From an uncultured Ruminococcus sp. (GTDB taxonomy: Bacteria > Bacillota > Clostridia > Oscillospirales > Ruminococcaceae), in contig NZ_CACWPP010000024.1 in the NCBI RefSeq assembly GCF_902762735.1, forward strand, positions 1-37,787: a DNA stretch of 37,787 nucleotides, in the 5' to 3' direction. Made by a program: the position numbers and the translations under genes. Below are positions 5,735 through 20,774 of the stretch, piece by piece. Under the pieces are notes generated by a model. The model was not told where the DNA came from, made no database searches, and worked only from the letters and a program-made list of their open reading frames with translations. Position 1 is the first letter of the stretch; each line of letters starts with the position of its first letter.

Positions 5735-5898
5735 GTTATTATCCCGCTGATACACCAAAATAAACAATGTTATATCGGGAATTGAATACAGTTGGCGGTT
5801 ATCTTTTCCCCCGCCTGCGGCGGGGGAAAGATAACCTCAACGCAGTTTTTCCTCATTGATAAAGGTATTTTGCAGTGGTGTGCTAAAGGGATAGTTAT
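5735..5898 (+). repeat. R1 dispersed palindromic element, copy B
   Basis: The most complete R1 copy, about 164 bp. The core hairpin is GGTTATCTTTTCCCCCGCC / GGCGGGGGAAAGATAACC with one bulged T. The outer ends are imperfect inverted repeats (ATTATCCCGCTGATACACCA against the complement of TGGTGTGCTAAAGGGATAGT). A 10-bp direct repeat ATTAAAAATT flanks it at 5725-5734 and 5899-5908, which could be a target duplication. The other copies do not show an equally clear one, so the true ends are uncertain. Confidence 0.8.
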
Positions 5899-5970
5899 AT
5901 TAAAAATTCCACATAGACCGCTTGCGGATACTGCGATAATGGTATCTGTGAGCGGGATATGTATGAAAAT

Positions 5971-6069
5971 CTCCCAATTTTGATATGTATTGCTGATGAT
6001 ACAAAATGGCTGTTTTTTCGTATTGTTCCCCCGCCTTCGGCGGTGGAACAATACACAGCCAAATTGGGA
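5971..6069 (+). mobile_element. R2 MITE-like element, copy 1 (99 bp)
   Basis: 99 bp from CTCCCAATTT to AAATTGGGA, flanked by a perfect 9-bp direct repeat TATGAAAAT (5962-5970 and 6070-6078), as expected for a target-site duplication. Inside is a second hairpin, GTATTGTTCC..CCGCC-TTCG-GGCGG..GGAACAATAC, with a UUCG tetraloop. There is no coding capacity. Matching copies are at 13781-13879 (opposite orientation) and 20660-20758. It lies about 70 bp from R1 copy B and immediately upstream of the spermidine synthase gene. Confidence 0.85.
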
Positions 6070-6114
6070 TATGAAAATTTATGTTTTTTACTATAATAGA
6101 CGGAGTGTAGTTTT

Positions 6115-7794
6115 ATGAAAAAGAATAATACAAACGAAAGACCCGCCGCAAAAGGCGTGCTGAGCAGCAAGCTGTATCTGTACCTGACAGAGTTCTTCGC
6201 GGGCATGTCGGTAATGGCGGTGGAACTGGGTGCAAGCAGACTTTTAGCGCCGTATTTCAGCTCTTCGCAGATAGTGTGGACTATAATTATCGGCACTATA
6301 ATGATAGCTATGGCACTGGGCAACTACTTCGGCGGAAAAAGCGCCGACAAAGACCCCGACCCCGACAAACTGTACAAGCGGGTGCTTTTCTCGGCGGTGT
6401 GGATAGCGGCTATCCCCTTTTTCGGCAAGATGGTCATACTGGGCGTTTCGGCGCTTCTGGTAGTAACGGTCAGCACGAATTTCCTGATATGGGCGGCGTT
6501 TCTGGCTTGTATGATAGTTTTCGTGTTCCCGCTGTTTCTGCTGGGCACTGTCACTCCGTCACTGGTAAAATACACCACTGACAGCCTTGATGACAACGGC
6601 AGGACAGTCGGCACACTGGGAGCTTTCAATACGGTGGGCAGTATCATCGGCACATTCGCACCCACATTCATCACTATACCGTCAGTGGGAACGGCGGTGA
6701 CATTTCTGATATTCTCTGGCATTCTGCTGGCGCTGGGCATAGTCTATTTCGTTTCCTGCAAGAGGGGTTATCTGCGGGTGGCTGTATGCACTGTGCTGTT
6801 CATAGTCTGCTGTGTGGTAAGCACTCTGCTGGGTTTCGCTTTCTGGGAAAAGTCTCTGAAATATGAGGGCGAATCGGTGTACAACTACTTGCAGGTCAAA
6901 GAGGACGAAAAGCAGGTGGCACTCTCGACAAACGTGCTGTTCGGCATACAGTCGATATATATGAAAGACGGCGGACTGACAGGGCTGTATTATGATGTGG
7001 CTATGGCTGCCCCGCTTATGGGTGAGGGAGATGACATCTCCGAAAAGAACATATTGGTGCTGGGCATGGGTACAGGCACTTATGCAAAACAGTGCAGAGA
7101 ATTCTTTCCGGGAATAAGCACACGCGGCGTTGAGATAGACGACAAGATAACCGACCTTGCCCACGAATATTTCGAGCTTAATCAAGACATACCCGTGACC
7201 ACTTATGACGGCAGGGCTTATCTTCAGGCGCTGAGTGCGCAGAGAGGCAAAGTCAACAGTGCCGCAGGTGTGATCGACCAAAGCATCGGCGACCTCAAAT
7301 ATGATGTGATAATGGTGGACGCTTATCAGGATATAACCATTCCTTTCCAGATGTCAACGGTGGAATTTTTTACGCTGGTGAAGCAGTCGCTGAAAGAAGG
7401 CGGCGTGATGGTGGTCAACATGAACATGCACTCCGACAAAGAGGGCAGCATCAACCAGCATCTCAGCGACACCATAGCATCGGTGTTTGACAACGTGTAC
7501 ACAGTTAAGGTGAACGGCACTACCAACCGCGAACTTTTCGCATCTGACATGGGCGGCATGCCCGACAGACTGTACAAGAGGGCTGACAGTCTGGAAGATG
7601 ATGACCTGAGAACGCTTATGCTCGACATTTACGAGAGAATGGACCGCTATGAAGGCGGCGAACTGATACTCACCGATGACAAAGCGCCCGTTGAACTGCT
7701 GGGCATGAACGTTATAGATGACCTTATCTCAAAAGAGCTGAAATACTACAAAAAAGCATTTAAAGAAAAGGGCATACAAGGGCTGATCGAATGA
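6115..7794 (+). CDS. Membrane-fused spermidine synthase-like protein
   Basis: 559 residues. Roughly the first 245 hold about seven membrane helices, including one with GMSVMAVELGASRLLAPYF. The C-terminal half is a Rossmann aminopropyl/methyltransferase-like domain: NILVLGMGTGTY (nucleotide loop, ~residue 320), GVEIDD (acidic ribose-binding residue), and DVIMVDAYQD with the Asp expected of spermidine synthases. The architecture is the known 'fused spermidine synthase' type with an MFS-like membrane half; its substrate is not established. The RBS is CGGAG about 10 bases before the ATG. The stop is TGA at 7792-7794, but the same frame stays open to 8040 with coding-like codons at first (see findings). 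It appears to be transcribed alone. Confidence 0.85.
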   Translation: MKKNNTNERPAAKGVLSSKLYLYLTEFFAGMSVMAVELGASRLLAPYFSSSQIVWTIIIGTIMIAMALGNYFGGKSADKDPDPDKLYKRVLFSAVWIAAIPFFGKMVILGVSALLVVTVSTNFLIWAAFLACMIVFVFPLFLLGTVTPSLVKYTTDSLDDNGRTVGTLGAFNTVGSIIGTFAPTFITIPSVGTAVTFLIFSGILLALGIVYFVSCKRGYLRVAVCTVLFIVCCVVSTLLGFAFWEKSLKYEGESVYNYLQVKEDEKQVALSTNVLFGIQSIYMKDGGLTGLYYDVAMAAPLMGEGDDISEKNILVLGMGTGTYAKQCREFFPGISTRGVEIDDKITDLAHEYFELNQDIPVTTYDGRAYLQALSAQRGKVNSAAGVIDQSIGDLKYDVIMVDAYQDITIPFQMSTVEFFTLVKQSLKEGGVMVVNMNMHSDKEGSINQHLSDTIASVFDNVYTVKVNGTTNRELFASDMGGMPDRLYKRADSLEDDDLRTLMLDIYERMDRYEGGELILTDDKAPVELLGMNVIDDLISKELKYYKKAFKEKGIQGLIE

Positions 7795-7890
7795 GAACTG
7801 ACATCAGACAGGCTGAATTTTTACCCGATATTCAAAGATGACGGATATTACTTCGGTGAGATGAATGCCGCCGACATGATAAAAGCATAC
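7795..7890 (+). pseudogene. Possible broken C-terminal tail of the upstream gene
   Basis: Directly after the TGA of the spermidine synthase the same frame continues with codons like those of real genes here, reading ELTSDRLNFYP, FKDDGYYFGEMNAADMIKAY. It then enters R1 copy D and stops at 8038-8040. Either the TGA is a recent nonsense change in a longer protein and the R1 element replaced the natural end, or this is the remnant of a separate gene. I do not recognise the peptide. Confidence 0.35.
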
Positions 7891-8008
7891 GACTATCCCT
7901 TTAGCACACCAACTAAAAATGCGGTGAACAAAAAGATAACCGCCAACTGTATTTGCTTCCCGATATATCATCGTTTATTTTGGTGTATCAGCGGGATGAT
8001 CACAATTT
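7891..8008 (-). repeat. R1 dispersed palindromic element, copy D (internally deleted)
   Basis: In reverse orientation relative to copies A and B. One end, ACTATCCCTTTAGCACACCA, matches the right end of copy B. The other part (AGATAACCGCCAACTGTATT, then TTTATTTTGGTGTATCAGCG) matches the complement of its left half. The hairpin core and much of the right half are missing, leaving about 118 bp. Confidence 0.75.
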
Positions 8009-8087
8009 CTTATAAAGCTAATTCTTTAAACCAAATTTAAGGATAATGACATATACTGTAAACAACGAAAACAAAGGAACATCTGAA

Positions 8088-9137
8088 ATGGTTATTGACA
8101 ATATTTACATCGTCATACCCGCCTATGAGCCTGACGAAAAGCTGACAGCCGTTGTAAACGAACTGGATGATAAAGCAAAATACAAACTGATCGTCGTAAA
8201 TGATGGGAGCGGCGCAGATAAAAACAGCATATTTGAAAGTGTAAAAAGCAAGGCTGTCCTGCTGGAGCATGAGCATAATCGCGGCAAAGGTGCGGCGCTG
8301 AAAACTGCATTCGCATATATAAAAGAAAATGCCGCAGGGAACTATGGTGTCATAACTGCCGATGCTGACGGTCAGCACAAGCCTGCTGACATTGAACGTA
8401 TCGCTGAGGCGCTGAAAGAAAATCCCGAAAAGCTCATAATGGGCTGCCGCAAATTCACGGGCAGCATACCATTCAGAAGCCGCTTTGGAAACAGTGTGAC
8501 GCGGGCTGTTTTCAGGTTTGCGGCAGGTGTCGGTGTCAGTGACACGCAGACAGGTCTCAGAGGGTTTTCGGGAAAGCTGACAGACTTCATGCTGGGGCTT
8601 TCGGGAGAACGGTACGAATTTGAGATGAACATGCTGCTGGAAGCGGCAAGAGAGGGCATAGCTTTCTTTGAAGTGCCTATCGAAACAGTCTACATCAATG
8701 ACAACAAAAGCTCCCATTTCAAGCCTGTGCGCGATTCGTTCAGGATATACAGGGATATATTGATCTTCTCCTGCTCTTCCCTGCTGAGTTTTCTGTTGGA
8801 TTACAGCTGGTACTCGGCGGTGCTGTTTTTCAGCGGCAACGTAAGGTTCGCGAATATTTCTGCCAGGAGCGTAAGTTCGGTACTGAATTTTATTCTGAAC
8901 AAGAAAGTCGTATTTAAGAACAAGGATAATATATTTTTCTCGGCGGCGAAGTATTTTCTGCTCGCGTTCGTCATATTGACCGTCAACACAGAACTTCTGG
9001 AGCTGATGGTGAAAAAGCTGAAAATAAACGGATATATCGCAAAGATAGCCATTGAGATGCTCATGTTCCTGTTCAGCTGGACTATGCAGAGATGTTTTGT
9101 TTTTAAGAAGAAAGGTCTGACAAAAGATGAAAAATAA
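8088..9137 (+). CDS. GT2 glycosyltransferase fused to a GtrA membrane domain
   Basis: 349 residues from the ATG at 8088, which has AAAGGAA eight bases upstream. The in-frame ATG at 8046 has only AAGGA two bases away. Residues ~5-225 are a GT-A family 2 domain: IYIVIPAYEP, VVNDGS, HNRGKGAALKTAF and the metal-binding ADADGQHKPAD (Asp92/Asp94). This resembles dolichyl- or undecaprenyl-phosphate sugar transferases of the DPM1 type. Residues ~235-345 carry four membrane helices of the GtrA type. The expected role is making or moving a lipid-linked sugar for surface-glycan decoration. It overlaps the next gene by 11 bases. Confidence 0.87.
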   Translation: MVIDNIYIVIPAYEPDEKLTAVVNELDDKAKYKLIVVNDGSGADKNSIFESVKSKAVLLEHEHNRGKGAALKTAFAYIKENAAGNYGVITADADGQHKPADIERIAEALKENPEKLIMGCRKFTGSIPFRSRFGNSVTRAVFRFAAGVGVSDTQTGLRGFSGKLTDFMLGLSGERYEFEMNMLLEAAREGIAFFEVPIETVYINDNKSSHFKPVRDSFRIYRDILIFSCSSLLSFLLDYSWYSAVLFFSGNVRFANISARSVSSVLNFILNKKVVFKNKDNIFFSAAKYFLLAFVILTVNTELLELMVKKLKINGYIAKIAIEMLMFLFSWTMQRCFVFKKKGLTKDEK

Positions 9138-10305
9138 GCGAATGCCCGTCTGGGCGATGGCAGTCACCGATACACTTATGATATGCGCGGCTGTGGGGAC
9201 TTTCATGCTGTTTGACTATGTAATGCCGCACAGTTCAGACGAAAAAGGAACTGTTGTGGCGCAGACAGACGATACAGCTCAGATCAGCTTTTCACTGCCG
9301 ACAGCTGGCAGTACGGATAAAGAAAACGCTGAAAAAAAGCAGGCGGGTGTACACAGCGAAAGCAGTACAGCTGAAAGCGAAAGCGCATCTGAAGCTGAAA
9401 GCATCACTGAAGAACCTTCCGAAAGTTCTGCTGTAACTGCCGATGAGAATAATACTCCTTTGCGAAAAAATAAGGCGCATCACGAGCATACCGCAGAAAA
9501 CTGGTACGACAACACAGACACTGATGAATACACTGCCGATGACACGCTTGTGCAGTCGGTGCTGGACGCTGATGTTAATTCGGAACAGGTGCAGTATTAT
9601 GAAAGCGATGACGCGGTGATAACCATTGACAAAAAATGGTTCGGTGAGGGCGATGACAAGGTAACTTACTACACGGCTGACATTTACGTGAGCAGTGTTG
9701 ATGTGCTGAAAACTGCCCTTGCCAAAGACACATACGGCAAGAACATCAAGGACTCGATATTCAGCATGGCGGCTGAACACGGTGCGGTATTTGCAGTGAA
9801 CGGCGATTTCTACGGCAATTCGGAAGAAGGCATAGTGGTGCGCAACGGCGTGAAATACCGCGACAACCTCAACGATGTGGACATCTGTGTGCTGTTCACA
9901 AACGGCGAAATGAAAACTTATGCTTATGACGAATTCGACACTGATGCAGTGCTGGCGCAGGGCGTATGGCAGGCGTGGTGCTTCGGACCGATGCTTCTTG
10001 ACGGGAACGGCGGAGTTCTGGAAACGTTCAACACCACCACATACCTCAACAGCGAAAATCCGCGTTCAGCGATAGGCTATATCGCACCAGGTCATTACAA
10101 GATAGTCACGGTCGATGGCCGTGACCCGGGCTACTCAAAGGGTGTCACCCTCAGTGAACTGGCGGCGATAATGGCTGATGAAGGCTGTCTGACTGCGTAT
10201 AATCTTGACGGCGGCTGTTCGGCGATGATGGTATATGACGGAGAACTTGTGAATATCCCCGACAGAGGGCGAAACATCAGCGACATCATCTATATCGGAG
10301 GTTAA
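9127..10305 (+). CDS. Phosphodiester glycosidase family protein (NAGPA domain)
   Basis: 392 residues. An N-terminal membrane anchor spans about 9-31. A ~110-residue Ser/Glu/Thr-rich linker follows, then a NAGPA-type domain at ~190-390. Diagnostic parts are AVNGDFYG, FGPMLLDGNG, NPRSAIGY, TVDGRDPGYSKGVTLSELA and YNLDGGCSAMM. This domain is known from the enzyme that uncovers mannose-6-phosphate and from bacterial exopolysaccharide-associated proteins, and it cleaves sugar phosphodiesters. The topology puts it outside the membrane. The 11-base overlap with the GT2-GtrA gene suggests that the two act on the same surface polymer; that link is inferred. Confidence 0.85.
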   Translation: MKNKRMPVWAMAVTDTLMICAAVGTFMLFDYVMPHSSDEKGTVVAQTDDTAQISFSLPTAGSTDKENAEKKQAGVHSESSTAESESASEAESITEEPSESSAVTADENNTPLRKNKAHHEHTAENWYDNTDTDEYTADDTLVQSVLDADVNSEQVQYYESDDAVITIDKKWFGEGDDKVTYYTADIYVSSVDVLKTALAKDTYGKNIKDSIFSMAAEHGAVFAVNGDFYGNSEEGIVVRNGVKYRDNLNDVDICVLFTNGEMKTYAYDEFDTDAVLAQGVWQAWCFGPMLLDGNGGVLETFNTTTYLNSENPRSAIGYIAPGHYKIVTVDGRDPGYSKGVTLSELAAIMADEGCLTAYNLDGGCSAMMVYDGELVNIPDRGRNISDIIYIGG

Positions 10306-10308
10306 GGC

Positions 10309-10551
10309 ATGAAAAGACTGGCGAGGATACTGCCCCACGCAACTATCGTCATGGTGGGAATGTTCATATTCTTCTGGGTGCTGGACATACTGAACCCGAC
10401 AATGAATTTCATAAACCGCAAGGCTTCAAACAAGCTGATGATAATAATGCTGGTGCTTTCGATGGTGACTGCCATTATGGACATCTACCACGAGAGAAAG
10501 TGTGACAGGCTGAAAAAACTCAGTGAGGACAGCGCTGATAACGGGCGGTGA
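10309..10551 (+). CDS. Small two-helix membrane protein
   Basis: 80 residues, starting 3 bases after the preceding stop, so it is very likely in the same operon. Two hydrophobic segments (about 10-28 and 42-58) are followed by a basic/acidic cytoplasmic-looking tail (YHERKCDRLKKLSEDSADN). I recognise no named family. Its position after the phosphodiester glycosidase suggests an accessory role in the same surface-glycan process, but nothing in its sequence shows an activity. Confidence 0.65.
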   Translation: MKRLARILPHATIVMVGMFIFFWVLDILNPTMNFINRKASNKLMIIMLVLSMVTAIMDIYHERKCDRLKKLSEDSADNGR

Positions 10552-10571
10552 TATTAAGTTTGGTCATCGCC

Positions 10572-10619
10572 GCTGACACACCACAGAAACAGCGGTCTTA
10601 CGGAACGAAAGATGTGGCA
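10572..10619 (+). repeat. R1 element, left-half fragment (copy E)
   Basis: About 48 bp aligning with 4652-4700 of copy A (CTGACACACCA, AAACAGCGGT, TTAC.GAAC), with roughly 80 percent identity by eye. The hairpin core and right half are absent. The fragment ends just before the ribosome site of the next gene. Confidence 0.65.
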
Positions 10620-10627
10620 CAGGAGAT

Positions 10628-11245
10628 ATGCTTTTTATACAATCATTGAATACTTATTACGAAAAACAGGGACGTTCCTCCGAATACGCGCGGCTGAGGA
10701 CAGGTGATCTGTTCCGCAGGATAGATGTAAGCAAGATCGGTGAGTGTGAAGTGTTCGCACAGCTGATAAGCATGAGATATGATGCCCGCAGCGGAGTTTC
10801 GCAGGCAGAACCGTACAGTGAAACATACAGGAAATACGGCAAAAGTATTTTTACCGAAGGCACAAGGGACAGATATAAGAATTTCAACGACCTGATGCAA
10901 TTCATACGCATTTTCAAGGAAGATGACAGATACAGGATAATGTTCTGCGATGAAAACGTTGAGTGGTGCCCCACAAAGCATCGGGGACACAATGAAGCAT
11001 TCTGCGATACGAACTCCATATATTATCACAGGGACATGCTGAACGAAACGGCATTCGTTCTTGATAAAGGCGGATATGGCAGGATAATATACAACAACCG
11101 ATACGTTGACCCCGACAGTCAGTACTGGCATTACGGCTGGCATATCTACAATATCATCAGCTGTGACATTACCGAATGCAGGGAAAAAATGTTTTTCCAA
11201 AAACAGCCCGAACACGAATACAGACAGCTTCTCGATCTCAGATAA
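10628..11245 (+). CDS. Hypothetical protein, 205 residues
   Basis: I do not recognise this protein. It is hydrophilic, with no signal peptide or membrane helix, and rich in Tyr, Arg and Asp. The second half has features such as MFCDENVEWCPTKHRGHNE and YYHRDMLNETAFVLDKGGYG. The ATG at 10628 has AGGAG only two bases upstream, so the start is weakly supported; the next in-frame ATG is about 48 codons in. It follows a half-copy of R1 and is closed by a strong terminator, so it is likely transcribed as a real gene. The function is unknown. Confidence 0.55.
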   Translation: MLFIQSLNTYYEKQGRSSEYARLRTGDLFRRIDVSKIGECEVFAQLISMRYDARSGVSQAEPYSETYRKYGKSIFTEGTRDRYKNFNDLMQFIRIFKEDDRYRIMFCDENVEWCPTKHRGHNEAFCDTNSIYYHRDMLNETAFVLDKGGYGRIIYNNRYVDPDSQYWHYGWHIYNIISCDITECREKMFFQKQPEHEYRQLLDLR

Positions 11246-11248
11246 TAT

Positions 11249-11288
11249 AGATCCCCTGAACGTTTTCAAGCGCTCAGGGGATCTTTAT
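11249..11288. terminator. Bidirectional terminator between converging genes
   Basis: Stem AGATCCCCTGA / TCAGGGGATCT (11249-11259 and 11274-11284), with TTTAT on the plus side and AT-rich sequence on the minus side. It serves the orphan gene on the plus strand and glgB on the minus strand. Confidence 0.8.
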
Positions 11289-13066
11289 CAGTATCTCTGT
11301 TTAATTATGGTACAACTCAGCGGTGCAAGCTGTATGTTCAGATTATAATTATATGAGCGCAGGTCGCGGTTAAGGCAGTTTGTGCCTGCGTAGATGTCCT
11401 TGTCGGAGTTTAGCAGTTCTTCGTAATCGCCGTTTTGCTCCACTTTCAGACCGTAATTCTGGCGAAGTCCCGAAAAGTTGAACACGAAATAAATGCCCTT
11501 GCCGCTTTCTTCTTTTCTGACAAAAGCGTATATCGACTGGTTGCTGTTGTTGGCATCGACCCAGCGGAAATACCCTGAATTGTAATCATTTGCGTAAAGT
11601 GCAGGTTCATTCAGGTAGATGCGGTGAAGTTCCTTGACATAGTGGTGTACCGAATCGTGGGCGGGATATGTGAGCAAATTCCAGCCAAGTTCCTTGTTTG
11701 GCCGCCATTCCATATATTCAGCTATCTCGTTGCCCATAAAATTCAGCTTTTTGCCGGGATGACCGAACTGAAATGCGTACAGACACTTGATGGTAGCTAT
11801 CTTCTCCTCATGCTTGCCGAAACATTTGTCAAGCATGGTCTGCTTGCCGTGTACCACTTCATCGTGGGAATACGGCAGGATATATAGGTCATTATAGAAA
11901 TAACTCATGGAGAAAGTCATTTTGTTATGATGTGCGCGGCGCTCGTAGGGAGGGGTCTTTACATAGTTGATGGTGTCGTGCATATAGCCCAGATCCCACT
12001 TGTAGTCAAAGCCCAGCCCGCCGAATTCCACAGGGGCAGTGACTTTGGTGTAGTCGGTGGAATCCTCAGCAAAGAGGATAACATCGGGGTGGGCTTTCTG
12101 AATGGCGTAATTGGTGTTTTTGAGAAACCATATGCCTGTATCATTCAGACGCTCATCACTTCTGCCGTGATGGAATATAAGGTTAGCCACAGCGTCATAG
12201 CGCAGACCGTCAACGTGGAATTTCTCTATCCAGAAATTCACAGCAGACTTCACAAAACTCAGCACATGAGGCTTGCTGTAATCGAAAAGCGCAGTGCCCC
12301 ACTCAGAATAACGCTCTTCCTCACGGTCAGACTCAAAGAGAGAACTGCCGTCATACATATGCAGTGCATAAAAATCGGTAACAAAGTGGACAGGCACAAA
12401 ATCAAGGATAACGCCGATACCCTCGCGGTGGCAGGCATCAATGAAGCGCATAAGCCCCGCAGGTTCACCGTAGCGCGAGGTCGCGGAGAAATAGCCCGTC
12501 ACCTGATAGCCCCACGAACCGTCAAACGGGTACTCGGTCAGCGGCATAAGTTCGATGTGAGTATATTTCATTTCCTTGACATAAGGTATCAGCATGCCGA
12601 TCATTTCATCGTAGCTGTAAAGGCGGTCGTCCTCTTCGCTGTCAAATTTAGTGCGCCACGAACCGAAGTGTACCTCGTAGATATTCATGGGCTTATCATA
12701 GCATTTATCGCGTTTTGCCAGCCATTCACCGTCCTGCCAGCTGTAACAGTCAATATCGTAGACGATGGAGGCGTTTTTTGGTCTGACCTCGCTGTAAAAA
12801 GCAAACGGGTCTGAGCGGTAGTGCTTCTGCAAAGCCTGTGTCGTTATGAGAAACTGGTATATATCGCCATTTCCCGCAGGTCTCACTGTTTCCCAGACAC
12901 CGCTTTCAAGGCGCTGCATATCGAACTCAGCACCATTGAGCATCAGTTTAACATCGCGGGCATTCGGGGCATAAGTGGCAAAGCGCACTCCCCCATCGAC
13001 AAAATGTGCGCCGAAATAATCATAAGCACGCATGCTCTGCCCCTGCAAGAATTCGTTTATTATCAT
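11288..13066 (-). CDS. glgB: 1,4-alpha-glucan branching enzyme
   Basis: 592 residues, shorter than the ~640-730 of most GlgB because the N-terminal region holds only one compact beta domain before the GH13 barrel. Branching-enzyme landmarks are present: GAHFVDGGVRFATYAPNA, MNIYEVHFGSW, ELMPLTEYPFDGSWGYQ, DGLRYDAVANLI (nucleophile Asp), LFAEDST (acid/base Glu) and YSHDEVVHGK. The C-terminal sheet includes YFRWVDANNSNQSIYAF. The enzyme cuts alpha-1,4 glucan and rejoins the piece as an alpha-1,6 branch in glycogen synthesis. The RBS AAGGA lies about 10 bases upstream. No other glycogen gene is next to it, and it is divergent from a TetR regulator, which may or may not control it. Confidence 0.9.
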   Translation of the reverse strand: MIINEFLQGQSMRAYDYFGAHFVDGGVRFATYAPNARDVKLMLNGAEFDMQRLESGVWETVRPAGNGDIYQFLITTQALQKHYRSDPFAFYSEVRPKNASIVYDIDCYSWQDGEWLAKRDKCYDKPMNIYEVHFGSWRTKFDSEEDDRLYSYDEMIGMLIPYVKEMKYTHIELMPLTEYPFDGSWGYQVTGYFSATSRYGEPAGLMRFIDACHREGIGVILDFVPVHFVTDFYALHMYDGSSLFESDREEERYSEWGTALFDYSKPHVLSFVKSAVNFWIEKFHVDGLRYDAVANLIFHHGRSDERLNDTGIWFLKNTNYAIQKAHPDVILFAEDSTDYTKVTAPVEFGGLGFDYKWDLGYMHDTINYVKTPPYERRAHHNKMTFSMSYFYNDLYILPYSHDEVVHGKQTMLDKCFGKHEEKIATIKCLYAFQFGHPGKKLNFMGNEIAEYMEWRPNKELGWNLLTYPAHDSVHHYVKELHRIYLNEPALYANDYNSGYFRWVDANNSNQSIYAFVRKEESGKGIYFVFNFSGLRQNYGLKVEQNGDYEELLNSDKDIYAGTNCLNRDLRSYNYNLNIQLAPLSCTIIKQRY

Positions 13067-13104
13067 ATTTGTTCACGTCCTTAAAAATAATTTACTAAAA
13101 TTAC

Positions 13105-13132
13105 TTGAATTTTTTTTTGATTGTGTTATAAT
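13105..13132 (+). promoter_or_regulatory. Promoter of the TetR-like gene
   Basis: TTGAAT (13105-13110), 16 bases, TATAAT (13127-13132). It lies in the short glgB/tetR divergent region. The sequence there is very AT-rich and I could not pick out a convincing operator palindrome. Confidence 0.5.
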
Positions 13133-13170
13133 TATATTGTGGAATTATGCCATAATGAAAGGAAAAGCAG

Positions 13171-13731
13171 ATGTCAACATCAACTATAACCAAAACAGCA
13201 CTCTGCAAAGCGCTTAAAGAGCTTTGCGGTCAAAAAGATTATGAAAAGATCTCCATATCAGAGATAACAGGCTTTTGCGGAATGAACAGACAGTCTTTCT
13301 ACTATCATTTTCAGGATAAGGAGGAACTGTTGTCATACATATATTACAATGAGCTTTTCAAGAACATCACCAGAGGTGTCAACTACGATAACTGGTATGA
13401 GCGTCTTGAGGGTTTTCTTGAGAACATGCAGAAAGACCGCAGGTTCTACTCAAACACCCTGAGAAGCAACGAAAAGACCTTTGAGAAATACCTTTACCAG
13501 AGTATGCACCGCCTGTTTCTGAGGTTTTTCTACCACGCGGTAGCGAACACCCGCAAGCGCAGTGACAAGGCGAAATTCTTCGCGGATTTCTACTCACACG
13601 GTTTCTGCGGCATGATAATCGACTGGGCTAAGCAGGGCATGAAGATCTCGCCACACATGGTCATGCTTCAGATGAAAGAACTTGCATTTGAAAACGTCAT
13701 CATCGGCAAGGGCTTCATTGAAAATCTTTGA
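13171..13731 (+). CDS. TetR-family regulator (DhaS-like)
   Basis: 186 residues. The N-terminal helix-turn-helix is clear: ALCKALKELC, KISISEITGFCGMNRQSFYYHFQDKEELL. The C-terminal ligand and dimer domain ends in AKFFADFYSHGFCGMIIDW, resembling the DhaS / TetR_C_8 subgroup seen near dihydroxyacetone kinase or as orphan regulators. The RBS AAAGGAA is about 6 bases upstream. It is followed by its own terminator, so it is monocistronic. The natural target is unknown; divergent glgB is the obvious candidate by position only. Confidence 0.87.
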   Translation: MSTSTITKTALCKALKELCGQKDYEKISISEITGFCGMNRQSFYYHFQDKEELLSYIYYNELFKNITRGVNYDNWYERLEGFLENMQKDRRFYSNTLRSNEKTFEKYLYQSMHRLFLRFFYHAVANTRKRSDKAKFFADFYSHGFCGMIIDWAKQGMKISPHMVMLQMKELAFENVIIGKGFIENL

Positions 13732-13737
13732 TACCAC

Positions 13738-13775
13738 AAAGCACGGCAAGGCTCGGGTCTGCCGTGCTTTTATTA
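13738..13775 (+). terminator. Terminator of the TetR-like gene
   Basis: Perfect 11-bp stem AAAGCACGGCA / TGCCGTGCTTT (13738-13748, 13760-13770), then TATTATTTTA. R2 copy 2 begins ten bases later, so the element has inserted just past the terminator. Confidence 0.85.
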
Positions 13776-13780
13776 TTTTA

Positions 13781-13879
13781 TCCCAATTTGGTTGTGTATT
13801 GTTCCTCCGCCGAAGGCGGGGGAACAATACGAAAGAACAGCCATTTTGTATCATCAGCAATACACATCAAAATTGGGAG
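13781..13879 (-). mobile_element. R2 MITE-like element, copy 2 (99 bp)
   Basis: In opposite orientation to copies 1 and 3, running from TCCCAATTT to AAATTGGGAG, exactly 99 bp. The flanking 9-mers are ATTATTTTA (13772-13780) and ATCATTTTA (13880-13888), 8 of 9 identical, consistent with an ageing target duplication. The inner hairpin is GTATTGTTCC..CCGCC-GAAG-GGCGG..GGAACAATAC. Confidence 0.85.
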
Positions 13880-13931
13880 ATCATTTTATCTGTATTGCCT
13901 GTGATACAAGATAGTGATATTATACTTATGC

Positions 13932-15428
13932 TCAGTTATCGCTGACATATGCGGCAAATCTGTCAAATGCGGCTTTGCCCTCTTCGGTGCGCTTGAAAAC
14001 GCCCGCATGTTCAAGCACCTTTGAAAAGACCTTGCCTATCTCGTCTTTGAGGATACCATCAACGTTCTCTTCTGTGAAAGTGTACTGCTTTTTCAGTTCG
14101 TCCGCCCAGTCTGCATGTTTGGAAAGGACTTCATCAGCGCTAATGTCATCGCCGCTTACCAGTGCTTTTGCCAGCAGTTCCATCTCGCCCTTTAAGCGCG
14201 ATGGCAGTACTGCCAGACCCATGACCTCGATAAGACCGATATTCTCTTTTTTGATGTGGTGCAGTTCGGCATGGGGATGGTAAACGCCCAGCGGGTGTTC
14301 ATCGGTAGTTATGTTGTTCCTCAGCACCAGATCCATCTCATACCTGCCGCCGCGCATACGAGCTATGGGGGTGATGGTGTTGTGCGGCTCGCCGTCAGTT
14401 TCGGCAAAGATGAATGCCGCTTCATCGGTGTAACCGCGCCAGAGAGTGAGTATCTTGTCAGCCAGATCGACAAGGGCGTTTCTGTCGGCGCTGTTCAGCC
14501 TGATGACCGACATCGGCCACTTGACGATGCCTGCTTCGACATTATCAAAACCACTGAACACCAGCTTGCGCTCGACCTCAGCCTTAGCCATAGCAAATTC
14601 GTAATGACCGCCCTGAAAATGCTCATGCGAGAGGATAGAGCCGCCGACTATGGGCAGATCGGCATTAGAGCCGACAAAATAGTGCGGGTACTGCTCAACA
14701 AAATCGAACAGCTTGTTGAAAGCCGACTTGTTTATGACCATCGGGGTATGGGTCTTGTTGAAAAGTATGCAGTGTTCGTTATAATAAACATAAGGGGAAT
14801 ACTGCAAGCCCCAGTCTGCGCCGTCAATGGTGACACCGATGATGCGGTGGTTCTGCCTTGCGGGGGAATTCACCCTGCCCGCATAGCCCACATTCTCATA
14901 GCACAGCAGGCACTTGGGGTAGCCCGACTGCTTCGCCAGCTTTGCGGCGGCGATGGCTTTGGGGTCTTTTTCGGGCTTGGAAAGGTTGATGGTAATATCT
15001 ATCTCGCCGTACTCGGTCACGGTTTTCCACCTGACATCTTTGCAGATGCGGTATCTTCTGATATAGTCGGTATCCTGCGACAGCTTGTAGAAATAATCGG
15101 TGGCATCTTCGGCAGAGACTGCTTTTTTTTCGGCAAAAGTGCGCTCAACTTCCGACGGGCGAGGGGTCAACAGACCCATCAGCTTTGTGTCAAAAAGGTC
15201 GCGGTAGACCACAGAATTTTCGCACAGACCCTTTTCGCAGGCGTAGTCAAGCAGTTCTGCGAGGGTCGATTGTAGGTCAATATTCTTATAATCGGCAGTG
15301 GGTTCTTCATACTCCTCAATACCCAGCGTTTCAAGTATGCGGTTGGTCGCCCACACCTTGTCGGCAGGGGCGATAAGCCCTGTTTCAAGACCATAGCAGA
15401 CTAACTTTTTTATACTTTCAAATATCAT
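13932..15428 (-). CDS. galT: UDP-glucose--hexose-1-phosphate uridylyltransferase, class II
   Basis: 498 residues, the length of the Gram-positive class II GalT (class I enzymes are ~350). Typical segments are an N-terminal helical region (ETGLIAPADKVWATNRILETLGI), GLLTPRPSEVERTF, CLLCYENVGYAGR, a catalytic His cluster in ILSHEHFQGGHYEFAMAKA, and GVYHPHAELHHIKKENIGLIEVMGLAVLP. It swaps UMP between UDP-glucose and galactose-1-phosphate in the Leloir pathway. The gene stands alone here, without galK or galE. Its promoter is at 15481-15509. A fixed ATG with an upstream AGGGGTG-type ribosome site fits the assigned start. Confidence 0.93.
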   Translation of the reverse strand: MIFESIKKLVCYGLETGLIAPADKVWATNRILETLGIEEYEEPTADYKNIDLQSTLAELLDYACEKGLCENSVVYRDLFDTKLMGLLTPRPSEVERTFAEKKAVSAEDATDYFYKLSQDTDYIRRYRICKDVRWKTVTEYGEIDITINLSKPEKDPKAIAAAKLAKQSGYPKCLLCYENVGYAGRVNSPARQNHRIIGVTIDGADWGLQYSPYVYYNEHCILFNKTHTPMVINKSAFNKLFDFVEQYPHYFVGSNADLPIVGGSILSHEHFQGGHYEFAMAKAEVERKLVFSGFDNVEAGIVKWPMSVIRLNSADRNALVDLADKILTLWRGYTDEAAFIFAETDGEPHNTITPIARMRGGRYEMDLVLRNNITTDEHPLGVYHPHAELHHIKKENIGLIEVMGLAVLPSRLKGEMELLAKALVSGDDISADEVLSKHADWADELKKQYTFTEENVDGILKDEIGKVFSKVLEHAGVFKRTEEGKAAFDRFAAYVSDN

Positions 15429-15480
15429 TCAAAACACCCCTGTTCCGGCTTTCAATATAACAGTTCACTCGGATAATTTT

Positions 15481-15509
15481 ATTATATTATAAAACTGACC
15501 TAAAGTCAA
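15481..15509 (-). promoter_or_regulatory. galT promoter
   Basis: On the minus strand TTGACT (15504-15509), 17 bases, TATAAT (15481-15486), leading to a leader of about 45 bases. No CRE box was identified with confidence. Confidence 0.65.
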
Positions 15510-15580
15510 CATATTTTTGTAAACTTCTCCGCCTGATGCACGGCAGATATTAATAATATGTTAAATAAACAGACTTTCCC

Positions 15581-15609
15581 TTGACAAGGGAGTGAAAATG
15601 TAATATAAT
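15581..15609 (+). promoter_or_regulatory. Consensus promoter of the T-box transcript
   Basis: A perfect sigma-A promoter: TTGACA (15581-15586), exactly 17 bases, TATAAT (15604-15609). The strong promoter in front of a T-box means control is mainly by attenuation. Confidence 0.85.
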
Positions 15610-15624
15610 AAAACATGTAAATAT

Positions 15625-15896
15625 GTGAATGGCGTTGAGAGGAACAAAAACGCTTTACGGAACTTTCAGAGAGCTGCCGCATGGTGCGAGGCAGCATTCC
15701 GACTGCGCGATAACTCGTCCTTGAGCTGATACGGTGAAATCCGCTTGGCGGGCAGTAGCTGTGTTCGGGTTCTCCCGTTACAGAGATACGCATTGTTCGA
15801 TGCGGCAGAGGTGTACAGCGTGAGCTGTGCATGAATGAGAGTGGTAACACGGGTATTTCGCTCGTCTCTATTTTTATAGGGACGGGCGTATTTTAG
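15625..15896 (+). ncRNA. T-box leader (tRNA-sensing riboswitch)
   Basis: The leader has the layout of a T-box. Stem I parts are visible: GAGAGGAAC, CAGAGAGCTGCC, GGTGCGAGGCAGC and TCCTTGAGC. The T-box sequence GAGTGGTAACACGG is at 15838-15853. The terminator hairpin is at 15859-15888. UGGU would pair with an ACCA tRNA end (discriminator A). The specifier region reads GATAACTCGTCC. CUC (Leu) is my preferred codon because a purine follows it and tRNA-Leu has A73; AAC (Asn) and ACU (Thr) cannot be excluded by eye. Uncharged tRNA would stabilise the antiterminator and turn on the S66 peptidase and probably leuA. Confidence 0.88.
15859..15894 (+). terminator. T-box regulated terminator
   Basis: Stem CGCTCGTCTCTAT / ATAGGGACGGGCG with two G-U pairs and a TTTT loop, then TATTTT. 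Its 5' arm overlaps the sequence needed for the antiterminator, as in other T-boxes. Confidence 0.85.
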
Positions 15897-15943
15897 TTGT
15901 CGGGCTTTCTTGACACCTTCTAATGCGGCAAGGAGGTATGCAA

Positions 15944-16987
15944 ATGGTAAAAAATGTGGCTATCGTCAGCCTTTCAAGCGGGCTTGCAGGCGAAGGATAT
16001 GAAAAATTCGCACTGGATATAGGTCTTAAAAGGCTGGAGAAGTACGGAATGAACGTTAAGTTCATGCCGAATGCCCTGAAAGGCATCGAATACCTGAATG
16101 CTCACCCCGAAAAACGGGCTGATGATCTGTTGCAGGCATTCAAAGACCCTGATACCGACATGATATTATGTGCCATAGGCGGAGATGATACCTACCGTTT
16201 GCTGCCTTACCTTTTTGACAATGATGAACTGAAAAATGCAGTGAGTGACAAGATCTTTCTTGGTTTTTCAGATACGACCATAAACCATTTCATGCTGCAC
16301 AAGCTGGGGCTGAACACCTTTTACGGTCAGGCTTTTCTCACGGATATTTGTGAGCTGAGCAGCGAGATGCTCCCCTATACGCAGAAGTATTTTGAAGAAC
16401 TCATCACCACAGGCACTATCAGTGAGATAACACCCGCTGAGGTGTGGTACGAGGAAAGAACGGCCTTTGATGAAAGTCAGGTGGGCGTACCGCTGAAAGA
16501 GCATAAATGCAGCGGTTTTGAACTGTTACAGGGCAGCCCTGTTTTCTCGGGCAGGATACTGGGCGGCTGTATCTGTTCGATGTATGATATGTTTGACAGC
16601 GAGCGAAATGAGGATATGCCGCAACTTTGTAAAAAGTACGGTATCTTTCCCGATAAGGACGAATGGAAAGGGCGTATACTTCTGCTGGAGTCAAGCGAGG
16701 AAAAGCCCTCACCCGAAAAATACCGCAAGTCACTGGAATATCTCAAGGCGGAGGGCGTTTTCGATGCTGTATCGGGCGTTCTGGTTGGAAAACCAATGGA
16801 TGATGCCTATTCGGAGGAATACAAAAAGCTGCTGGTAAGCGTTATCGACCGTCCGGAACTGCCGATACTTTATGATCTGAATATAGGTCATGCAAACCCA
16901 AGATGTATAATGCCCTTTGGCATAGATGCTGTTGTTGATGCCGAAAAGCAGTGCATAAGGTTCTCAGATCGGGAGCATGCAAAATGA
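15944..16987 (+). CDS. Peptidase family S66 protein (MccF / LD-carboxypeptidase-like)
   Basis: 347 residues from the ATG at 15944, placed seven bases after AGGAGG (15931-15936); upstream in-frame ATGs at 15923 and 15938 are badly spaced. The S66 triad is visible: Ser109 in FLGFSDTT, Glu249 in RILLLESSEE and His316 in NIGHANPRC. The N-terminal VAIVSLSSG and the CAIGGDDTYRLLPYL block also fit. The family contains murein LD-carboxypeptidases and MccF, which destroys aminoacyl-adenylate toxins. The long middle segment with Trp168 (EVWYEERTAF) looks more MccF-like, but this is a judgement by eye. No signal peptide is seen, so it is cytoplasmic. It is controlled by the T-box and lies 73 bases before leuA. 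Confidence 0.85.
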   Translation: MVKNVAIVSLSSGLAGEGYEKFALDIGLKRLEKYGMNVKFMPNALKGIEYLNAHPEKRADDLLQAFKDPDTDMILCAIGGDDTYRLLPYLFDNDELKNAVSDKIFLGFSDTTINHFMLHKLGLNTFYGQAFLTDICELSSEMLPYTQKYFEELITTGTISEITPAEVWYEERTAFDESQVGVPLKEHKCSGFELLQGSPVFSGRILGGCICSMYDMFDSERNEDMPQLCKKYGIFPDKDEWKGRILLLESSEEKPSPEKYRKSLEYLKAEGVFDAVSGVLVGKPMDDAYSEEYKKLLVSVIDRPELPILYDLNIGHANPRCIMPFGIDAVVDAEKQCIRFSDREHAK

Positions 16988-17006
16988 CATCGGAAAAAAA
17001 TGAATA

Positions 17007-17036
17007 TTGCATGCTCTGATATAAATATAGTACAAT
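17007..17036 (+). promoter_or_regulatory. Possible internal promoter before leuA
   Basis: TTGCAT (17007-17012), 18 bases, TACAAT (17031-17036). If active, leuA would have both its own start and read-through from the T-box transcript. No terminator is visible between the peptidase gene and leuA. Confidence 0.4.
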
Positions 17037-17060
17037 CATTCTACCAAGGAGGAATTTTAG

Positions 17061-18725
17061 ATGAAAAACGCTGAAAAGTACGCAAGAGGATATTACATGC
17101 CTCCCAAGAAATGTATGAAATGGGCTGAGAAGGACTATATCGACCACGCGCCCATATGGTGCTCGGTAGACCTGAGAGACGGCAACCAGGCACTTATAAT
17201 ACCCATGAGCCTCGAAGAAAAGCTGGAGTTTTTCAAAAAGCTGGTAGACATCGGTTTCAAGGAGATCGAGATAGGCTTCCCTGCTGCGTCGGAGACTGAG
17301 TATGAGTTCTGCCGTACACTGATCGAAAAGAACCTTATCCCCGATGATGTCACCATTCAGGTGCTGACACAGTCGAGAGAGCATATTATCAAAAAGACCT
17401 TTGAGGCGATAGACGGCGCTAAGCACGCTGTCGTTCACCTGTACAACTCCACATCTGTTGCACAGAGAGAGCAGGTGTTCCGCAAGTCTAAGGAAGAGAT
17501 AATCAAGATAGCGACCACAGGCGCTGAACTCTGCAAGGAGTACAAGAAGAAAGCCAACGGTCACATCACATTTGAGTATTCGCCCGAGAGCTTCACGGGA
17601 ACTGAGCCTGAGTTCGCGGCTGAGATATGCAACGCTGTCATAGATATATGGGAGCCTGATGCTGACAACAAGGTGATAATCAACCTGCCCGTTACTGTTG
17701 AGATGTCTCTGCCGCACGTTTACGCACAGCAGGTAGAGTACATGTGCGAAACTCTCCACAACAGGGAGAATATTATAATCTCGCTCCACCCGCACAACGA
17801 CCGCGGCACAGGCATCGCTGACACAGAGCTTGGTCTGCTGGCAGGCGGTGACAGGGTTGAAGGCACATGCTTCGGCAACGGCGAGAGAACAGGCAACGTG
17901 GACGTTATCACACTGGCACTTAACATGTACACTCACGGCGTTGAGCCTAACCTCGACTTCACTGATCTCCCCTCGCTGATAGAGCTTTATGAGAGAGTCA
18001 CCAGAATGAAGGTATATGACAGACAGCCTTACTCAGGTGCGCTGGTATATGCGGCATTCTCAGGCTCACATCAGGACGCTATCGCTAAGGGCATGAAGTG
18101 GCGTGATGAAAAGAACGACCAGCACTGGACCTGTCCTTATCTGCCGATCGACCCGCACGATGTGGGCAGAGAGTATGAGGGTGATGTTATCCGCATAAAC
18201 TCGCAGTCGGGCAAGGGCGGCATCGGCTTCATAATGGAACAGCAGTACGGTTACGATATGCCTAAGGCCATGAGAGAAGATTTCGGCTACAAGGTAAAGG
18301 ATATTTCCGACAAGGCTCACAAGGAGCTGAGCAGAAGTGAGGTACACCAGATATTCAAGGATACTTACCTGAACATTAATGCACCTGTTGACATAGTTGA
18401 AGCCCACTACACCCAGAAGGCTGATGAACTCATCGGCGCTAAGGTAAAGGCTGTCATCAACGGCAAAGAAGTCGAGTGCAGTGCAGACGGCAACGGCAGA
18501 CTTGATGCTGTGGCAAACGCTCTGACCACTGAGATAGGCATGGAGATAAACGTTGACACCTACACCGAGCATGCGCTGGAGAGAAAGACCACCTCTGAGG
18601 CTTGCTCTTACGTGGGCATAAACGTGGGCAACAAGATATTCTGGGGTGTCGGCAGACATTCAGATATTATCGTATCGTCAGTAAGGGCGCTGGTATCTGC
18701 CATCAACAATGCTATGAAGAAGTAA
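17061..18725 (+). CDS. leuA: 2-isopropylmalate synthase
   Basis: 554 residues, the long type related to fungal and actinobacterial enzymes. The catalytic barrel begins with WCSVDLRDGNQALI (the R-D-G signature) and includes EIEIGFPAASE, HLYNSTS, the metal site SLHPHNDRG and GNGERTGNVD. A connecting region and the C-terminal LeuA regulatory domain (~430-554: VKAVINGKEVECSADGNGRL...DYTEHAL-type) provide leucine feedback. The enzyme condenses acetyl-CoA with 2-oxoisovalerate, the first committed step of leucine synthesis. The RBS AAGGAGG is strong. It stands directly behind the T-box/S66 unit, which supports a leucine-responsive leader. Confidence 0.94.
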   Translation: MKNAEKYARGYYMPPKKCMKWAEKDYIDHAPIWCSVDLRDGNQALIIPMSLEEKLEFFKKLVDIGFKEIEIGFPAASETEYEFCRTLIEKNLIPDDVTIQVLTQSREHIIKKTFEAIDGAKHAVVHLYNSTSVAQREQVFRKSKEEIIKIATTGAELCKEYKKKANGHITFEYSPESFTGTEPEFAAEICNAVIDIWEPDADNKVIINLPVTVEMSLPHVYAQQVEYMCETLHNRENIIISLHPHNDRGTGIADTELGLLAGGDRVEGTCFGNGERTGNVDVITLALNMYTHGVEPNLDFTDLPSLIELYERVTRMKVYDRQPYSGALVYAAFSGSHQDAIAKGMKWRDEKNDQHWTCPYLPIDPHDVGREYEGDVIRINSQSGKGGIGFIMEQQYGYDMPKAMREDFGYKVKDISDKAHKELSRSEVHQIFKDTYLNINAPVDIVEAHYTQKADELIGAKVKAVINGKEVECSADGNGRLDAVANALTTEIGMEINVDTYTEHALERKTTSEACSYVGINVGNKIFWGVGRHSDIIVSSVRALVSAINNAMKK

Positions 18726-18735
18726 TACAAATGAC

Positions 18736-18772
18736 AACAGCCCGCAGTGCGAAACTGCGGGCTGTTTTTTGC
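18736..18772 (+). terminator. leuA terminator
   Basis: Perfect 13-bp stem AACAGCCCGCAGT / ACTGCGGGCTGTT (18736-18748, 18754-18766), GCGAA loop, then a T-run. Confidence 0.92.
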
Positions 18773-18821
18773 GTTTTTTTCACAGTAAAGATAAAACTGT
18801 GACATGTAGTCAGATGATAAA

Positions 18822-18855
18822 TAAAAACGGCGCTTCTTACATCGAAACGCCGTTT
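18822..18855 (-). terminator. Terminator of the zinc-ribbon membrane protein gene
   Basis: Stem AAACGGCG / CGCCGTTT (18825-18832, 18848-18855); read on the minus strand it is followed by TTATTTAT. Confidence 0.75.
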
Positions 18856-18877
18856 GTTTTTAGCTATTATCCAAAGA

Positions 18878-19420
18878 TCAGTTGAGCTTTGCACCGCAGC
18901 TTGTGCAGAATGCGTTGCCTGCGGGAACTTTGCTGCCGCACTGAGTGCAGAACCTCTCGCCTGCTGCGGGTGCTGCCGCAGGAGTAGGTACAGGTGCAGG
19001 GATCTGCTGAGGCTGTGCCATATTCTGCTGAGGCTGTGCGAACTGCTGAGGCTGTGCATAGTTCTGGGCAGGTGCAGGAGCGGGCTTCATGGACTGTGCT
19101 ATCTGAGGATTGTCGCTGATAGCCTTCATTACCTCAAGCACCTTGAAACCGATGTATACGATAGCGATTATCCAGAAAAGGATCTGGAGAAATGTTACAA
19201 AGCCTGTGCCGCCCGAAGAAGTCTTTACAGATGATGCTTTGCCGCCAAGTTCTTCCATGATAGCCTGATTGAGCATTTCGCCCAGAGCATTCTCTTTGGT
19301 CGCCTTGTAAGCCTGGAAGCCGTAGTTAGCGCCGATGGTGATGAAAAGTGCGAAAAGCGCTGAAACTGCAGGTCCGATGATCTTATACTTGCTGTTCATA
19401 AAATTGTTGATTCCGTTCAT
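18878..19420 (-). CDS. Membrane protein with C-terminal zinc ribbon
   Basis: 180 residues. Two hydrophobic helices at about 14-33 and 73-95 enclose a short loop. A Pro/Gln/Ala-rich linker follows (repeats of AQPQQ), ending in a zinc-ribbon: FCTQCGSKVPAGNAFCTSCGAKLN. This layout is common in Firmicutes proteins of unknown role; the ribbon would be cytoplasmic. Start chosen at 19420 because GGAGG lies eight bases upstream. It has a near-perfect promoter (19458-19486) and its own terminator, so it is monocistronic. No enzymatic function can be assigned. Confidence 0.75.
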   Translation of the reverse strand: MNGINNFMNSKYKIIGPAVSALFALFITIGANYGFQAYKATKENALGEMLNQAIMEELGGKASSVKTSSGGTGFVTFLQILFWIIAIVYIGFKVLEVMKAISDNPQIAQSMKPAPAPAQNYAQPQQFAQPQQNMAQPQQIPAPVPTPAAAPAAGERFCTQCGSKVPAGNAFCTSCGAKLN

Positions 19421-19457
19421 GTTCTATACCTCCAAAAATTAAATATATAATAACCAT

Positions 19458-19486
19458 ATTATACATATTATTCACGTTTTTGTCAA
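19458..19486 (-). promoter_or_regulatory. Promoter of the zinc-ribbon protein gene
   Basis: On the minus strand TTGACA (19481-19486), 17 bases, TATAAT (19458-19463). Confidence 0.7.
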
Positions 19487-19523
19487 TAGCAAAACCACAA
19501 AATTTATTAAAATATTTATTGTT

Positions 19524-20633
19524 TTAATTGTCAGCTGCGATAAGGGAGATGACCATAAAGTCATTTGCACTGCCCTCTTCGGCTATTTCGACCTTAATGG
19601 TGTGTTTTGCGCCCTTTGCGGCGCTTTCGGTGAGAGTGGTGAGACAGCAGAGATCGCCCCATGTCTCATCGAAATTTGCGTCCAGCTTTACACTGTTGGC
19701 GATGTCGCCGTCAATGGTGGCATAAGCGACGGGTGCGGGCTGTTTGACAGTGCGCCGCCACTGTAACATAAGTATGCTGCCCTCAGCCTCAAATGTAACA
19801 GAAGCGCCCTTAGCCGAACCTGTCCAGCCGTCTTTGAACGGGTCACAGAAGCGGTCTGCCTTGTGGGTGTCAGCAAAAAAGCCGTCAAGTATGGGGGTGC
19901 AGTTGGTGTTGCGGTAAATGACTGCGTCCTCGTATCTGCATGGAGTTATCTTCTCGGCAAGGGCGGGCTTTGCGCCGAAAACACCGCCGTTTTTATAAGC
20001 GCTGTAATTCTCTTCCAGCAGACCTTTTATCAGGTCAGCTATCATCTTATGACCTATATCGGTGGGATGCAGGTTATCATCGGTGTAGACTTTAGGGTCT
20101 ATCTCGCCGCTTTCAACTAACTGCCACGCATAATTTTTCACGCTGACGATGGGCAGGTCATAATGCAGACCTATCTCGTTATGGACACGCTGGGCGTTCC
20201 TGCCGTCATCGTAGAAGAGGTTGTTTATCAGCAGCACTGCTTTTACGCTTTCAGCGGCGAGAAGTCTGCGAACAAGGCTTTCGTAAGTTTCTTTGAAGAA
20301 GTCGGTATCATCATCGTTTACAGAGAACTCTACGAATACCACATCAGGCTTGCGGGAAAGCACATGTTCTTCTGCGCGGGCTGCGCCGTACTGCGAAGTT
20401 GTTGCGCCTATACCTGCGTTGAACATGGTAATGTCAGCCGCAGGAAATTTCTCTTTCCACCACTGAAATGACAGGTCAACATAGCGCTTATCCTCAGTTG
20501 AGGCGTTACAGCCCTGTGTTATCGACCCGCCCAGATATATCACGCTGAGTCTGCCCTCATTTTCGGCTTTTTTGAATGCGTTTCCCAGGAAACTTAAATT
20601 GCCCTTATTGACTATCGAAATGCTCTTATCCAT
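19524..20633 (-). CDS. SGNH/GDSL-family esterase with C-terminal beta domain
   Basis: 369 residues from the ATG at 20633, which has GGAGG at 20641-20645. A longer frame continues upstream through the R2 element but has no start support. Residues ~30-215 form an SGNH hydrolase: block I YLGGSITQGC (nucleophile Ser37), NAGIGATTSQYG, block III FVEFSVNDDD, and block V DNLHPTDIGH with the Asp-His pair. The last ~130 residues look like a beta-sandwich (VTFEAEGSILMLQW, HTIKVEIAEEG). No signal peptide is seen, so it is probably cytoplasmic and may deacetylate imported oligosaccharides. It could be related to CE2- or CE17-like acetyl esterases; the exact family is not resolved. Confidence 0.82.
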   Translation of the reverse strand: MDKSISIVNKGNLSFLGNAFKKAENEGRLSVIYLGGSITQGCNASTEDKRYVDLSFQWWKEKFPAADITMFNAGIGATTSQYGAARAEEHVLSRKPDVVFVEFSVNDDDTDFFKETYESLVRRLLAAESVKAVLLINNLFYDDGRNAQRVHNEIGLHYDLPIVSVKNYAWQLVESGEIDPKVYTDDNLHPTDIGHKMIADLIKGLLEENYSAYKNGGVFGAKPALAEKITPCRYEDAVIYRNTNCTPILDGFFADTHKADRFCDPFKDGWTGSAKGASVTFEAEGSILMLQWRRTVKQPAPVAYATIDGDIANSVKLDANFDETWGDLCCLTTLTESAAKGAKHTIKVEIAEEGSANDFMVISLIAADN

Positions 20634-20659
20634 ATTTATCCTCCATTTTAGTTTACTAT

Positions 20660-20758
20660 CTCCCAATTTTGATGTGTATTGCTGATTATACAAAATGGCT
20701 GTTCTTTCGTATTTTCCCCCCGCCTTCGGCGGGAGAACAATACACAACCAAATTGGGA
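20660..20758 (+). mobile_element. R2 MITE-like element, copy 3 (99 bp)
   Basis: Exactly 99 bp, CTCCCAATTT to AAATTGGGA. The flanking 9-mers GTTTACTAT (20651-20659) and TCTTACTAT (20759-20767) agree at 7 of 9 positions, an older target duplication. The inner GC hairpin has a TTCG loop. It sits only 26 bp upstream of the SGNH gene start, so that gene must be transcribed through it or from within it. Confidence 0.83.
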
Positions 20759-20774
20759 TCTTACTATAACAATA

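Follow-up and report, generated by a model that had tools for sequence, protein, structure and literature searches.

Three copies of a hairpin-bearing repeat, here called R2, lie dispersed in a 37,787-nucleotide stretch of DNA from an uncultured Ruminococcus sp. (NCBI RefSeq assembly GCF_902762735.1, contig NZ_CACWPP010000024.1, positions 1 to 37,787; the whole stretch is hereafter the window), and they raise the question of what kind of element R2 is and how it came to occupy these sites. We conclude with high confidence that R2 is a miniature inverted-repeat transposable element (MITE), i.e., a 100-bp nonautonomous DNA transposon without a gene. It has terminal inverted repeats and a target duplication of fixed length; it is short, gene-less, and present in many copies; and relatives carry empty sites. 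The family is apparently unnamed in the literature and has probably been active recently.

The R2 unit runs from CTCCCAATTT to AAATTGGGAT with defined ends CTCCCAATTTTGATGTGTATTG / ATCCCAATTTGGTTGTGTATTG, which form imperfect terminal inverted repeats of ~22 bp (19 of 22 positions agree between the two consensus ends). A preliminary description of the window, made from the sequence alone, had located the three copies, one of them reversed, with their common ends and central hairpin, and had taken each as 99 bp long and flanked by a 9-bp direct repeat. The positions, the shared structure, and the presence of flanking repeats all stand, and both lengths need correction: in 59 of 61 distinct copies from the genome of the organism itself (own genome), GGGA is followed by a T, and the unit is thus 100 bp and the duplication 8 bp. 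A 9-bp duplication was rejected because its ninth base is the 3' T of R2. The flank matches formerly read as 9/9, 8/9, and 7/9 accordingly become 8/8, 7/8, and 7/8 for copies 1, 2, and 3, respectively (Table 1).

The duplication was evaluated in a set of 61 distinct copies, comprising the 30 best query matches, the 3 in the window, and 28 from 20 stretches around exact ends, after removal of double rows of two tandem-duplicated copies (L010 and L013); both flanks are available for 59 of these. The two flanks match at 8/8 positions in 40 copies and at 7/8 in 12, and differ by 2 to 6 mismatches in the other 7. When the right flanks of the 61 rows were shuffled, at most one mismatch was obtained in 0.97% of cases and none in 0.15%. 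Across the same rows, left and right flanks agree with a frequency of 0.80 to 0.93 at each of exactly eight positions, falling to 0.52 at the would-be ninth base, i.e., the T of R2, and to 0.15 on the other side. Among the copies with at most one mismatch, position 1 of the target is A or T in 52/52 and position 8 in 49/52. The preliminary description had reasoned that genome copies lacking a duplication would speak against transposition; 52 of the 59 carry it with at most one mismatch.

That description had also reasoned that orthologous loci always occupied by the element would refute it; relatives show empty sites. The region of the window is syntenic in Ruminococcus albus 8, where R2 is absent at all three sites, and the target 8-mer is present once at two of them. 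The copy 2 site reads ..GATTATTTTTTTCTGTGCTCAG.. without R2, and the copy 3 site reads ..TTTTAGTTTACTATAACAATA.. without R2, with a repeat inserted nearby that resembles a second family, R1. At the copy 1 site both R2 and the neighboring R1 are absent, and the flanks are too changed to read the exact target. The copy 2 interval is devoid of R2 in all six relatives examined (G002, G003, G004, G005, G009, and G026). In addition, the two families are nested in both directions: at L192 an R2 copy sits within R1, flanked by CAAAATAG and CAAAATAA, where intact R1 has CAAAATAA once, and R. albus 8 has, at L060, an R2-like element interrupted by an R1-like repeat. The earlier proposal of transposition of a nonautonomous element is thus supported by the 8-bp duplications and the empty sites. 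Its further suggestion that the copies inserted at different times is plausible, given the range of 0 to 6 mismatches and the nesting both ways, with decay of an 8-bp duplication being a weak clock.

R1 itself is a 164-bp family (GTTATTATCCC...GGGATAGTTAT) with a GC hairpin of its own. R. albus 8 gives dozens of matches to it, and 199 kb of the own genome contain it at about 22 places; 11 of 36 R2 copies have a piece of R1 no more than 300 bp away.

With three mismatches at most, the end pattern TCCCAATTTNNNTRTGTATTG is found 246 times in forward and 248 times in reverse orientation in the 4.06-Mb own genome. These 494 matches, at two ends per element, correspond to ~247 R2 copies; the reversed pattern, used as a control, gave 0 forward and 2 reverse matches. 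Thirty-eight distinct 100-bp copies lie 1 to 4 positions off the consensus (mean, 2.03), which suggests a recent spread, this divergence being a low estimate because the sampling favors good copies.

How might such an element have moved? We envisage that a DDE-type transposase, encoded by an insertion sequence (IS) with matching ends and acting in trans, would bind the ~22-bp inverted ends of R2 and cut AT-rich intergenic DNA with an 8-bp stagger, with joining and gap repair leaving the 8-bp duplication. After insertion, the unstable central GC palindrome would often be lost from the resident copy through slippage between short direct repeats, and the resulting 48- to 81-bp relics would keep intact ends. 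The preliminary report that no transposase lies in the window fits the list of open reading frames (ORFs) as read by eye, no domain search of these ORFs having been made.

Our search for a mobilizing enzyme considered the families IS256 (PF00872), ISL3 (PF01610), DDE_Tnp_1 (PF01609), and IS1595 (PF12762) in the genomes G000, G004 (R. albus 8), G009 (Ruminococcus sp. RGIG4311), and G026 (SRR873597_bin.128). The ends of the 17 loci recovered were compared with those of R2 in one analysis covering 11, another covering 16, and a separate one for the remaining locus. Several points weigh against the interpretation given here. None of the 17 transposase matches, drawn from only these four families in four genomes, has an R2-like end pair. 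Across the 29 genomes of the genus, no exact R2 end has another base at the interior position tested, a search that would miss a parent sharing the first interior bases of R2. The IS256 ends of R. albus 8 start GAGTC(A/T)ATCC..TGTGTAAAC, which are not those of R2. To these points are added the 7 of 59 copies whose duplications have 2 to 6 mismatches and a copy sample that is not random, the good copies being over-represented by its derivation from best query matches and stretches around exact ends. Likewise, no autonomous partner of R2 was found among 234 sequences totaling 1.17 Mb. A further element was noted: L081 1385-2614 (G000:C3) encodes a DDE_Tnp_1 transposase between identical 20-bp ends (CACGGAAATCAATTTTCAAA) and is flanked by a 9-bp duplication (GCAAAATTG); its ends are unrelated to those of R2.

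With respect to the family of the enzyme, a mover outside IS256, e.g., IS66, IS6, IS1, or an IS family not yet described, appears the likelier source. None of the transposase elements examined matches the R2 end TCCCAATTT..TGTGTATTG, and 8-bp duplications are also made by members of the IS6 family, according to PMC7986276. Against such a mover stands the fact that the sole positive lead is a partial likeness to one IS256 end: R2 and the IS256 end of R. albus 8 have a common ATCCCAA..TGTGTA pattern, from which R2 differs in lacking the outer GAGTC and in having TGTGTATTG where IS256 has TGTGTAAAC. The 8-bp duplication and ~22-bp ends of R2 also fall within the 20- to 30-bp ends and 8- to 9-bp duplications given for IS256 in PMC12587605. 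However, the ends of R2 are identical to those of no IS256 element found in the same or a close genome; those of the IS256 fragment in the own genome (GAGACTGTTT..TGTGTAAACTC) are also unlike them. Mobilization by an IS256-type enzyme is offered as a first guess, and a doubtful one.

The distribution of R2 provides a wider context. When the 29 genomes of the genus were queried with the 100-bp unit, with no more than 31 candidates scored in each, 12 gave matches at E <= 0.001, and near-full-length copies are found among the matches listed in six of them (G000, G004, G007 [UBA3800], G009, G010, and G026); a scan that gave the hosts by name yielded at least 39 stretches, and its list of hosts is a minimum. 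In a set of 396 genomes at the family level, 20 match the R2 consensus, many through the hairpin alone, and 11 have an R2 end within two mismatches. Viral contigs yielded 0 exact matches to the end pattern, R2 was unmatched in the phage records, and the plasmid records gave only one 32-base match with an E value of 0.3, in Enterococcus.

Elements with R2-like ends and other interiors are present elsewhere. Genus g71 has such elements of 285 bp and 159 bp with 8-bp duplications (GACAGATA and TTATCTTT, respectively), genus g36 has one of 420 bp with the duplication TTATCTTT, genus g28 has one of 109 bp with the duplication TTACTTTT, and within the genus of R2 itself, G025 has one of 327 bp (L039 91-417) with a single mismatch in its duplication. 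Judged from these sequences, R2 seems to represent one branch within a larger set of ends, since elements with similar ends and other interiors occur in other genera. Among the 234 sequences, end pairs spaced 300 to 5,000 bp apart with a duplication of at most one mismatch number three, of 327, 420, and 752 bp, the former two being short for a transposase. By eye, the R2-ended elements L220 1500-1919 (G063), L039 91-417 (G025), and L219 (G336), of 327 to 420 bp and from two genera, have similar GGGG-rich inverted interiors. The 752-bp stretch (L114 773-1524; G419:C26) has R2-like ends, a AAAAAAAT duplication, and a 186-aa ORF for which Pfam gave no match above the cutoff. It may be an element with a passenger gene or, because its duplication is A-rich, two elements flanking a gene. 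A broader proposal, which we regard as speculative, is that R2 belongs, as one branch, to a family-wide class with (C/A/G)TCCCAATT...TGTATTG-type ends, 8-bp duplications, and unrelated interiors (48 to 420 bp, possibly with the 752-bp passenger-gene form). The mover of this class would be a transposase lineage with ends not yet recorded, and its GC palindrome would be a recombination hot spot at which repeats are trimmed or duplicated and repeat families exchange halves.

The hairpin of R2 is often deleted. Sixteen of the 61 distinct copies are only 48 to 89 bp long, and 15 of these have lost the hairpin (consensus 50-84) partly or wholly, with breakpoints that mostly differ. Microhomology at the deletion junctions averages 2.1 bases versus 0.8 when deletions of equal size are placed at random, a high mean that is largely due to four copies with the same 5-base ATACA junction; one deletion copy, of 57 bp, aligns poorly. 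Two further copies, of 155 and 170 bp, are lengthened by a partial tandem duplication. At L197 936-1051, alignment reveals an R2 half joined to an R1 half at their common GC palindrome, which suggests recombination between the two families; further R2/R1-like joins were seen by eye only at L197 4098-4164, L197 about 5488-5590, and L069 about 3800-3870. We infer that deletions, duplications, and joins alike arise by slippage and template switching at the hairpin. For IS256, PMC5225508 mentions that precise excision is believed to require homology of about 8 bp, by replication slippage.

Alternatively, the short forms (48 to 81 bp) might move as subfamilies of their own and not derive from full-length R2 by deletion in place. 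As would be expected of mobile forms, a duplication with at most one mismatch is kept by 14 of the 15 deletion copies for which the two flanks are available, and a length of 48 bp recurs in six copies of two forms. Nevertheless, most of the other deletion copies have breakpoints of their own, and the four 48-bp copies with the ATACA junction differ from one another (GATATG/GATGTG and CAGCC/CAACC) at sites where full-length copies also vary, which suggests repeated independent loss. We therefore consider separate subfamilies unlikely and retain in-place deletion as the preferred origin of the short copies.

Finally, we examined where R2 sits relative to genes and whether its fold might point to a function. 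With codon-scored gene calling in the window and 20 stretches (199 kb), an overlap of more than 30 bp with a called gene was seen for none of 36 copies, as against 76% of random points that fall within genes. The copies lie between tandem (20), convergent (7), and divergent (4) genes, with 5 at edges, whereas intergenic points would give 50% tandem, 14% convergent, and 37% divergent; these calls are crude, one copy being labelled convergent though both of its listed neighbors are on the plus strand. The scarcity of copies between divergent genes could reflect selection against promoter insertions, the numbers being small. Copy 2 lies between convergent tetR-like and galT-like genes (named by eye from their translations), and some copies coincide with contig edges (C7, C110, and C10). 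A still cruder earlier calling, which placed 16 of the 36 copies inside ORFs, was discounted, as it involved over-long or spurious ORFs in the window. The three window copies fold with -34 to -44 kcal/mol (z, -5.1 to -7.6), and R2 has no Rfam family at the gathering threshold, the only matches being subthreshold ones to snoRNAs. That R2 is a repetitive extragenic palindromic (REP)- or terminator-like repeat kept for a function in transcription or RNA would suit this very stable fold, the intergenic position of 36/36 checked copies, and the 7 of 31 classified copies between convergent genes (about 14% expected on the crude gene calls), but it is highly improbable in view of the 8-bp duplications, the empty sites, the nesting, the frequent loss of the hairpin while ends and duplications stay, and the lack of an Rfam match at the gathering threshold. 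R2 may nevertheless have a secondary role after insertion.

Table 1. Copies of R2, their target duplications, and other features of the window
Feature	Coordinates	Strand	Remarks
R2 copy 1	5971..6070	+	100 bp; GC hairpin 6020-6054
Copy 1 left duplication	5963..5970		ATGAAAAT
Copy 1 right duplication	6071..6078		ATGAAAAT
R2 copy 2	13780..13879	-	100 bp; GC hairpin 13796-13830
Copy 2 left duplication	13772..13779		ATTATTTT
Copy 2 right duplication	13880..13887		ATCATTTT; one mismatch
R2 copy 3	20660..20759	+	100 bp; GC hairpin 20709-20743
Copy 3 left duplication	20652..20659		TTTACTAT
Copy 3 right duplication	20760..20767		CTTACTAT; one mismatch
R1	5735-5898		164 bp; flanked by 10-bp duplication ATTAAAAATT
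Partial R1	4645-4800		
Partial R1	7931-8003		
T-box leader	15626-15872	+	Rfam gathering score
Lysine riboswitch	35651-35841	-	Rfam gathering score

Bacterial MITEs, as described in a review (PMC10969869), are shorter than 500 bp, have inverted ends of ~4 to 30 bp, duplicate their target, lie between genes, and form stem-loops, and shortened copies keep their ends and repeats. R2 resembles those covered there (e.g., Correia elements, Chunjie, QMITE1/2, and ERIC) in size, ends, duplication, placement, stem-loop, and shortened copies. It differs in its host group, the terms Ruminococc-, Clostridi-, and Firmicutes being absent from the main text of that source. Its ~247 copies exceed those of several of the elements in the same account and fall below those of ERIC in Photorhabdus (711). 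The clustering and nesting of R2 and R1 are like those of BOX, RUP, and SPRITE of Streptococcus pneumoniae, families that, per the same review, bunch and insert into one another; that host is unrelated to the one studied here, and the likeness noted concerns arrangement. A literature search found no paper linking Ruminococcus albus with miniature inverted-repeat elements.

At ~247 copies of up to 100 bp, some of them shortened, R2 makes up at most about 0.6% of the 4.06-Mb genome. Its full-length and hairpin-deleted copies form a natural set for studies of palindrome instability, and its presence varies between close relatives. R2 offers markers of recent genome change in Ruminococcus.

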